Positions 40,603 to 42,205 of a DNA stretch of 64,000 nt are shown here, piece after piece (within the stretch, counting starts at the first letter, position 1; each line of letters opens with the position of its first letter). The notes beneath the pieces were generated by a model. It was not told the origin of the DNA, ran no database searches, and saw nothing but the letters and a program-made list of their open reading frames with translations. The translations under genes and the position numbers were made by a program. This DNA comes from Pseudorhodobacter aquimaris (lineage in GTDB: Bacteria; Pseudomonadota; Alphaproteobacteria; Rhodobacterales; Rhodobacteraceae): contig NZ_LGHS01000046.1 in the NCBI RefSeq assembly GCF_001202025.1, forward strand, positions 1 through 64,000, in the 5' to 3' direction.

Positions 40603-40690
40603 TGAACCGCCCCTTGTTTGCCGGAGACCTTCAACCTGACTAAGGATGAGGGCTATGGAAAAGAGTAAGACATCAAACCGTTATTCACCC

Positions 40691-40727
40691 GCTGCCCGGC
40701 AACGCATGTTTACATGCGTGAGAGGGG
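40691..40727 (+). repeat. palindromic element 1 (37 bp, forward)
   Basis: Left motif CTGCCCGGCA, stem ACGCATG/CATGCGT around loop TTTA, right motif GAGAGGGG. Removal joins TCA CCC to GAG ATG in OrfA. Confidence 0.85.
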
Positions 40728-40994
40728 GAGATGCGGGCGCGCGCTGTTCGCATGGTGCTGGAGCATCAAGGCTCCTATGAAACGCAATCTGCGGCGGTAG
40801 CTGCCATTGCCCCCAAGATTGGCTGCATCCCAGAGACATTGAGGGTCTGGGTTCGGCAGGCGGAACAGGACAGCGGGGCACGGGACGGTGCGACCAGTGC
40901 TGAGCGTGACAAGATCAAAGAACTGGAACGTGAGGTGCGCCAGCTTAGGCAGGCAAACGAGATCCTACGCAAGGCGTCGGCGTATTTTGCGCAG

Positions 40995-41032
40995 CCCCTT
41001 ACGCGGTTTGAAGACAAACCGCTGCCGGGCAG
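40995..41032 (-). repeat. palindromic element 2 (38 bp, reverse)
   Basis: Read on the minus strand: CTGCCCGGCA, stem GCGGTTTG/CAAACCGC around a four-base loop, right motif GTAAGGGG. Removal joins GCG CAG to CGG GAA CTC near the OrfA/OrfB junction. Confidence 0.85.
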
Positions 41033-41073
41033 CGGGAACTCGACCGCCCGTTCAAGCCATGATCGGCTTTATT

Positions 41074-41114
41074 CGTTGCCCGGCAGGGCATTGCGCAGCA
41101 ATGGCCCGAGAGGG
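41074..41114 (+). repeat. palindromic element 3 (41 bp, forward)
   Basis: TTGCCCGGCA, stem GGGCATTGC/GCAATGGCCC around loop GCA, right motif GAGAGGGG. Removal joins TTT ATT to GAT GAT CAT at the start of OrfB. Confidence 0.85.
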
Positions 41115-41178
41115 GATGATCATCGCGTGGTCCATGGGGTCGGGTCGATCTGCAGGGTGCTGCCGATTGCCCCATCCA

Positions 41179-41221
41179 TTGCCCGGCAGGCGAATTGCAT
41201 GGCAATTCGGCCGAGAGGGGA
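41179..41221 (+). repeat. palindromic element 4 (43 bp, forward)
   Basis: TTGCCCGGCA, stem GGCGAATTGC/GCAATTCGGCC around loop ATG, right motif GAGAGGGG. Removal restores CCA TCC ACC TAC TAC in the SxYY region of OrfB. Confidence 0.85.
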
Positions 41222-41543
41222 CCTACTACGCCTGCCTCGCTGTGCGCGCCGATCCGTCCAAGGCCTCGGCACGCCAGCAGCGGGATGCGGTCTTGCGGCC
41301 AAAAATCCAGAAGGTCTGGGATGACAACTGGGAGGTTTATGGTGTCCGCAAAGCCTGGCGGCAGCTGTGCCGTGAAGGTGAAGCTGTGGCGCGCTGCACC
41401 GTGGCTCGCCTGATGAAGGGCATGGGTTTACGGGGTATCCTTCGAGGAAAGGCTATGAAAACAATGGCCCCCGATACCTCAGTTCCATGCCCTCGCGACA
41501 AGGTGAACCGCAAGTTCCGAGCGCCAGCGCCAAATTTGTTGTG

Positions 41544-41581
41544 CCCTCTCGCCGATACTGCGTATCGTCTGTCGGGTAACA
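41544..41581 (-). repeat. palindromic element 5 (38 bp, reverse, diverged)
   Basis: On the minus strand: TTACCCGACA, stem GACGATAC/GTATCGGC around loop GCA, right motif GAGAGGG. Removal restores TTG TTG TGG GTC AGC GAC, the first catalytic Asp region. Confidence 0.8.
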
Positions 41582-41780
41582 GGTCAGCGACTTCACTTAT
41601 GTCGCAACATGGCAAGGATTTGTTTACGTCGCCTTCGTGATCGACACCTTCGCCAACCGCATCGTCAGCTGGAAAGCATCGCGGTCTGCCAAGACCGACT
41701 TCGTCCTCGATGCACTTGAGCAAGCGCTTTATGCCCGCCGTCCAACCTATCAGGGCGGGCTTATTCACCATAGGGACCGC

Positions 41781-41821
41781 CCCTCTCGGGACATTGTTGC
41801 ACAATGCCCTGCCGGGCAGTG
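41781..41821 (-). repeat. palindromic element 6 (41 bp, reverse)
   Basis: On the minus strand: CTGCCCGGCA, stem GGGCATTGTG/CAATGTCCC, right motif GAGAGGG. Stem closely resembles that of element 3. Removal restores GAC CGC GGC GGG CAG around the second catalytic Asp. Confidence 0.85.
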
Positions 41822-42016
41822 GGCGGGCAGTACGTGTCCATTCGCTACACCGAGCGCTTGGCAAAGGCGGGTATTGAGCCATCCGTTGGCAGCGTCGGCG
41901 ACGCCTACGACAACGCTTTGGCTGAGACCATCAACGGCCTTTACAAAACCGAGGTCATCCGGCGGCGCAGTTCATGGAAAACAATGGAAGAGGTCGAGTT
42001 GGAAACCCTAAAATGG

Positions 42017-42055
42017 CCTTACGGCGATGCAAGAGCATCGCCTACCGGCTTATAG
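42017..42055 (-). repeat. palindromic element 7 (39 bp, reverse, diverged)
   Basis: On the minus strand: left part AAGCCGGTA, stem GGCGATGC/GCATCGCC around loop TCTT, right motif GTAAGG as in element 2. Removal restores AAA TGG GTC GAT TGG TTC near the OrfB end. Confidence 0.75.
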
Positions 42056-42205
42056 GTCGATTGGTTCAACAACCGCCGCCTGCTTGAGCCCATCGGAAAT
42101 ATCCCACCCGCAGAAGCAGAGAAGGCCTTCTATGCAAACTTGAACACACTCGATATGGTCGCGTAACACGGACTAATTGGTCTCCGGTGAAACCGGGGCG
42201 GTTCA

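Follow-up and report, generated by a model that had tools for sequence, protein, structure and literature searches.

The window analysed here is a stretch of 64,000 nucleotides from Pseudorhodobacter aquimaris in which an IS3-family transposase gene is broken up by seven short palindromes. This locus raises the questions of whether the palindromes are insertions, what kind of element they represent, and why they lie in a transposase gene. They are members of a mobile family of Rhodobacterales, which sits mostly in transposase genes and is apparently undescribed. The initial annotation knew of no described family with these motifs, and none was found in our search of the open-licence PMC literature, which covered mostly listings.

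Seven hairpin units in one insertion sequence

The interrupted insertion sequence (IS), its seven elements, and the neighboring features are as follows.

40320..40643, + strand: N-terminal fragment of hsdM (PF12161, E 5e-12), running into the start of the IS
40603..42205, + strand: interrupted IS3-family insertion sequence (ISDsh1-like), recognized by inverted repeats, domain matches, and ISDsh1 homology, with exact ends by sequence reading
40690..40726, + strand: element 1, class A (perfect stem), 37 nt, site empty in L038; from exact pattern, L038, and ISDsh1 comparison
40979..41174, + strand: stretch of the ALIL pseudoknot (IS3 frameshift signal; Rfam RF01497, 52.3 bits), containing elements 2 and 3
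40996..41034, - strand: element 2, class A, 39 nt, right tail GTAAGGG, in the OrfA/OrfB frameshift region (ALIL); from exact pattern, Rfam, and ISDsh1
41074..41114, + strand: element 3, class B (bulged stem), 41 nt; from exact pattern, covariance model, and ISDsh1
41177..41219, + strand: element 4, class B, 43 nt, site empty in L038; from exact pattern, L038, and ISDsh1
41544..41581, - strand: element 5, left motif partly decayed, 38 nt; from loose scan and ISDsh1, missed by the covariance model at E<=0.01
41781..41821, - strand: element 6, class B, 41 nt; from exact pattern, covariance model, and ISDsh1
42017..42055, - strand: element 7, left motif strongly decayed, 39 nt, in frame but with a stop; from a 13-residue ISDsh1 gap, missed by the covariance model at E<=0.01

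The host IS carries 35-nt terminal inverted repeats (40595-40629 and 42179-42213), and its pieces match the Pfam families HTH_Tnp_1, HTH_21, and rve. What we take, from motifs as we know them, to be the D, D, and E regions of the transposase are all found in these pieces. ISDsh1 of Dinoroseobacter shibae is an uninterrupted relative, with 67% DNA identity and 76% of the query covered. The sole match of the Rfam search was the pseudoknot of the host IS, and there was none for the hairpin unit. Elsewhere in the window, positions ~301-886 are homologous to the flanks of other IS3-type elements and carry no hairpin units.

The initial annotation described seven palindromic insertions of one transposase gene in both orientations, with constant end motifs and differing central stems. 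Both points are borne out, with unit lengths of 37-43 nt, and the second extends to the wider family. The pattern TGCCCGGCA-N-AGGGG has five exact copies in the window (40693-41818) against a dinucleotide-shuffle expectation of 0.04, and all five fall inside the one IS. Element 5, the sixth copy found, shows few changes from the pattern, and element 7 is strongly decayed. The covariance model recovered five of the seven elements at E<=0.01 and found no further copy elsewhere in the 64-kb window, so the earlier statement that there is no eighth copy holds at that sensitivity, at which elements 5 and 7 are themselves missed. Loose-scan matches at 32519 and 45242 were rejected as chance, the same scan having given 21 matches in five shuffled windows. 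The motif boundaries needed correction: the constant ends stand, but the true unit takes in three more bases on its left (CRY) and one G less on its right, the fourth G being part of the target.

Comparison with relatives confirms, at the level of sequence, that all seven segments were genuinely inserted. A copy of the IS from another species of the genus, P. ferrugineus (L038, genome G005), ~91% identical, is without elements 1 and 4, and there the flanks are joined directly. Near site 3 it has a unit with a different stem, adjoining a deletion, and its match to the window IS stops short of sites 5-7. The objection that close relatives might carry the same segments as ordinary sequence is thereby answered in part, for sites 1 and 4, with sites 5-7 beyond the match. 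When compared with OrfA and OrfB of ISDsh1, homology at sites 1, 2, and 6 ends and resumes at consecutive residues (at site 2 the second match is weak, E 0.09), and site 7 is a clean 13-residue gap within one match, between W and VDWFNNRR of OrfB. One residue, the W before VSDF, is absent at site 5. At sites 3 and 4 a single match runs through both units, and the intervening piece, which has its own frame, was read by eye. Judged from these alignments, the ISDsh1 protein continues across all seven sites, at sites 3 and 4 partly by eye. In the initial annotation, excision on paper restored the transposase codon by codon; in these alignments, reading continuity is seen at sites 1, 2 (weakly), 6, and 7, falls one residue short at site 5, and at sites 3 and 4 depends on the reading by eye. 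Further close pairs of filled and empty copies are L334 and L116, L069 and L192, and L112 and L175; all pairs, including the window and L038, are ~89-91% identical.

Anatomy, target, and distribution of the family

The unit is 5'-C-RYTG-CCCGGCA-[variable stem-loop]-GAGAGGG-3' and is mostly 36-43 nt long. Class A units have a perfect outer stem (86/224), and class B units have a mostly longer, bulged stem (138/224). Of 314 copies, 247 have an RYTG tag and four a GTAG tag; GTAG-tagged kin are L298 in D. shibae and L361 and L366 in genome G255. Element totals vary between counts (207, 224, 234, 241, 250, 258, 275, and 314) as loci were added and thresholds changed, and they include some chance matches. 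The ends are nearly invariant across copies, partly because the search pattern selected them. The stems differ yet stay paired: in three alignments, 8/9, 5/8, and 5/7 pairs are altered on both sides, the covariation is far above shuffled and slid controls, and none of 500 shuffles reaches the score. The stem would be recognized by shape and not by sequence. Within class A, covariation also links the second stem base to the second tag letter before TGCC, in 50 of 86 units (shuffle maximum 43), with relatedness uncontrolled. Predicted DNA folds have CCC and GGG closing a base helix around an internal loop in three of the five window elements tested and in L298 and L361; the other two window elements fold without this closing. 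Stem mismatches among 174 distinct hairpins number 55 GT/TG vs 17 AC/CA, a hint that one strand folds, with the GT/TG excess lying mostly at the closing pair (29/55) and the counts becoming 26 vs 16 once that pair is removed. At L089:2162-2236, two units of opposite orientation adjoin, and one of them seems to have inserted at its neighbor's end.

Predicted empty sites of 241 elements were compared with homologues in fetched loci. An empty-site homologue was found for 175 of them, and the predicted site equals the real one to the base in 141 of the 175; the remainder have one base more (20), one base fewer (10), or another outcome (4). Positions -4 to -1 of the target are C A T C (59, 64, 61, and 70%), followed by G (56%), which places the insertion at (C)ATC^G. 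No target duplication was seen across the 175 comparisons, and a one-base duplication suggested by the first two empty sites was rejected after them. The same six alignment columns of an IS5-type family were struck more than once, by units with differing stems, which a short target would lead one to expect. With respect to the transposase gene, units point either way at random (76 sense, 90 antisense, p=0.31). Covariation between tag and target, as guide pairing would produce, is absent for the usual tag letters, the small p-values stemming from rare letters, and the TG/CA complementarity between tag and target is static.

The hairpins are not special to this one transposase gene. By the strict pattern, they are present in 30 of 101 genomes, the window's own among them, with a maximum of 33 per genome, and the control pattern read backwards occurs at most once per genome. 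The covariance model, built from class B units only, gives 29 matches at E<=0.1 in the window's own genome, 92 in P. turbinis, 11 in D. shibae, 32 in genome G021, and 25 in P. ferrugineus. The initial annotation had proposed a search of Rhodobacterales genomes, other genes, and other IS copies, and this search yielded a mobile family that lies mostly in other transposases. Multiple units per transposase are a habit of the family, other IS carrying two to four. Across the class, 9 of 289 genomes have matches under strict filters (E<=1e-5), four of them in the window's family, own genome included. Named genomes hold at least 119 loci and viral contigs 25. There are at least 155 exact pattern matches, 129 of the 155 with a stem by a simple fold threshold; the 26 stemless matches, many of them in unrelated taxa, were dropped, including L112, L116, and L173, which are probably real. 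The named carriers belong for the most part to Rhodobacterales; some twelve loci from unrelated taxa seem to be chance matches. A sequence resembling one stem type is carried by 95 plasmid records, whose named carriers are roseobacter relatives, and the model roseobacters Dinoroseobacter shibae, Ruegeria pomeroyi, and Octadecabacter arcticus are among those with copies on plasmids. Searches with one stem type gave no match in E. coli genomes and a single partial match in phage records.

Transposase genes as the usual location

Flanks of 400 bases per side were compared with 24 library pieces of transposases, of which 19 were confirmed by Pfam and 5 read by eye; the flanks of 161 of the 250 stem-bearing elements match this library. 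At 221 of the 250, the flanks recur at an element of another locus with <97% identity. Neither holds for 29, among which are transposases by Pfam or eye (L122, L142, L186, L024, L235, L226, and L340), chance matches from unrelated taxa, and intergenic copies of genome G176. Forty-five of the 63 covariance-model matches outside the window were also examined: 42 have recurring flanks, two were read as transposases by eye, and L298 is neither. By Pfam, 40 element-flanking pieces of P. turbinis include IS3-type, IS66, IS256, IS91, IS110, and DDE types, together with a single SnoaL-like fragment and several side matches to general HTH/TetR_N domains, and 16 of the 40 have no match. Open reading frames (ORFs) beside 86 elements (86 of 98, with twelve loci of unrelated taxa left out) match rve (16), DDE_Tnp_1 (7), DDE_Tnp_1_5 (4), mutator (3), IS66, IS110, and others among the 25 of 33 families listed, and there are single matches to ornithine cyclodeaminase, short-chain dehydrogenase, FtsX, and TraG. 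The 63 control ORFs 3.5 kb away (63 of 74, eleven left out) show no transposase among the 25 of 46 families listed. A good number of ORFs in either set are without a match; the probable reason is that the longest ORF frequently falls on the wrong strand. By Pfam, the transposases beside units belong to at least six unrelated types (IS3-type rve/HTH_21, DDE_Tnp_1 types, IS66, IS91 Y2, IS110, and IS256 mutator), and IS21 and IS630 were read by eye. The family sits mostly in transposase genes and rarely in intergenic DNA, in counts that are not scaled to the genome fractions of IS and intergenic DNA. Exceptions are L166, which adjoins an ornithine cyclodeaminase gene, and L298, which has no transposase.

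Two groups of copies lie in other surroundings. Three viral contigs (L227:8879-8913, L237:5559-5595, and L241:1526-1560) share one insertion site of the unit in a phage gene for a C5 cytosine methyltransferase, and two of the three have it in frame, coding for additional residues. Outside Rhodobacterales, intergenic kin occur in genome G176 (L352, L356, L358, L360, and L362) and partly in G255 (L361, L365, and L366). These intergenic hairpins, partly GTAG-tagged in G255, are possibly an ancestral REP form.

Units mostly shift the reading frame, since the lengths of 250 stem-bearing elements leave a remainder of 2 on division by three in 127 cases, 1 in 81, and 0 in 42. They are also copied along with their IS. 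In genome G021, an IS3 with four units (L060:2138-3522 and five other copies) has the same elements in all six copies, and queries with one DNA and one protein piece found no close intact copy of it there; for the 123-residue piece, the next-best homologues are a broken 74% copy, short fragments, and then one at 39%. Although no close intact copy turned up beside the six element-bearing ones, the IS was still moved by something. The six copies differ at 12 non-synonymous and 3 synonymous sites (expected non-synonymous fraction 0.72), which is no sign of purifying selection or function after insertion, a weak indication given that sibling IS copies drift anyway. Four IS110-like copies with a unit in P. 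turbinis (L082, L090, L092, and L094) can be set against an 86% identical copy without one (L087); the differences lie in patches, which looks like gene conversion.

Mechanism and rival readings

We put at roughly 0.55 the probability that the family operates in the manner of a single-strand element with one hairpin, mobilized in trans. The non-autonomous mobile element would be a single hairpin whose CCC and GGG can close the base helix, and it would insert at the DNA level, 3' of the short target (C)ATC and before G, leaving the target unduplicated. Movement in trans, most likely as folded single-stranded DNA, and an HUH-type or similar nuclease that cuts and joins are what we infer; the ends would be read by sequence and the stem by shape. 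The ends of REP and IS200/IS605 elements are read likewise by a nuclease, through sequence and stem shape. Within Rhodobacterales, the unit would persist mostly in transposase genes, usually shifting the frame, and would be copied with the IS. A general single-strand element should also occupy intergenic DNA, however, and the rarity of such copies here counts against the proposal.

Two candidate mobilizers were rejected. Y1/RAYT is absent from several element-rich genomes, with no Y1 transposase (PF01797) in the window's own genome, P. turbinis, G021, or D. shibae (G000, G007, G021, and G043); it is present in some carriers (G005, weakly, G015, G052, and G214), and 38 loci around Y1 genes contained no match to the class-B-based model at E<=1, three Y1 matches having no locus. 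IS91/Y2 occurs in 5/5 Pseudorhodobacter tested, but is absent from G021 and G214.

REPs of the GTAG and CGTC super-families, as an excerpt of PMC3733652 describes them, resemble the unit as small imperfect hairpins with a tetranucleotide tag, variable stems, and many copies in alphaproteobacteria; they are mostly intergenic, and the excerpt also mentions Rickettsia palindromic elements. The existence of GTAG-tagged kin (L298, L361, and L366) is a further likeness. The unit differs in being mainly RYTG-tagged (247/314, against 4/314 for GTAG) and in lying inside transposase genes, where REPs lie mostly between genes (PMC3733652, same excerpt), and neither a model match near Y1 genes nor a flanked RAYT gene was found. 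It shares with REPs the palindrome and the copy number, and lacks the GTAG/CGTC tag, the extragenic place, and the RAYT gene. With Y1 missing from several element-rich genomes, no model match near the Y1 genes fetched, and no covariation of tag and target, we therefore do not file the family as REP.

IS200/IS605 elements share with the unit hairpin ends, a short target 5' of the insertion, and no duplication, the last two of which fit the 141 of 175 empty sites; the hairpin family differs in its single hairpin and in having several element-rich genomes without a Y1 transposase. Rickettsia palindromic elements are also palindromic insertions within genes, but they are in frame in many genes, whereas the hairpin units mostly shift the frame and sit in transposases. 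Only 42 of 250 lengths are divisible by three, and the unit is in frame in two phage genes. Mitochondrial byp elements are likewise small hairpin insertions in coding DNA; the hairpin units, by contrast, are not orientation-bound (76 vs 90), and no evidence of bypass was seen.

The bias toward transposases could have a neutral origin, in which a REP-like element inserts everywhere, selection purges it from useful DNA, and dead IS retain their copies. Unit lengths that do not preserve frame (127/81/42 of 250), the 12 non-synonymous against 3 synonymous sites of the G021 copies, and the copies between genes (G176, G255, and L298) would all agree with such a sink. Intergenic or dispensable DNA should then hold as many units or more, however, and the recurring flanks (221/250, plus 42/45) also speak against it, leaving it a doubtful if possible account. 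A sink would be expected to load intergenic DNA as well, which leaves two options: a coupling of insertion to something that IS do, or very efficient removal of copies elsewhere. A dedicated process might instead put the hairpin into unrelated transposases by sensing a property of mobile DNA and not its sequence, making the unit a transposon parasite or a means of silencing transposons; copy number, transposition intermediates, or transposase bound in cis may be what is sensed. We advance this reading only tentatively.

Its silencing form, in which mobile DNA is recognized by a mechanism of the host or a plasmid and silenced by placing the hairpin into it, would account for the spread over at least six unrelated transposase types by Pfam, IS21 and IS630 by eye, and the phage methyltransferase, and for the control ORFs 3.5 kb off (63, with no transposase among the 25 of 46 families listed). 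No candidate system was found, single non-transposase matches occur beside units (ornithine cyclodeaminase, short-chain dehydrogenase, FtsX, and TraG), and we know of no bacterial precedent for an anti-transposon system that inserts hairpins; we consider this form unlikely. The units could also be tolerated as mini-introns, with ribosome skipping or RNA removal keeping the transposases working. Reading continuity across the window sites, the multiplication of element-bearing IS in G021 without a close intact homologue, and the in-frame unit in two of three phage methyltransferase genes are what such tolerance would predict, but the two orientations are equally common (76 vs 90), in-frame lengths are the rarest class (42/250), and the G021 copies lack purifying selection, a weak point because sibling IS drift anyway. 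Random orientation and the frame counts disfavor splicing or bypass, and we regard this reading as very improbable.

As a mobile element, the hairpin family is defined and countable: its ends are constant, its stem is apparently specified by shape only, and its target is known. It lies mostly in unrelated transposase genes, unlike the mostly intergenic small palindromes described in the excerpt of PMC3733652. The family offers a way into the question of what keeps IS in check in plasmid-rich marine bacteria, and it is a ready system for finding a new mobilizing nuclease.
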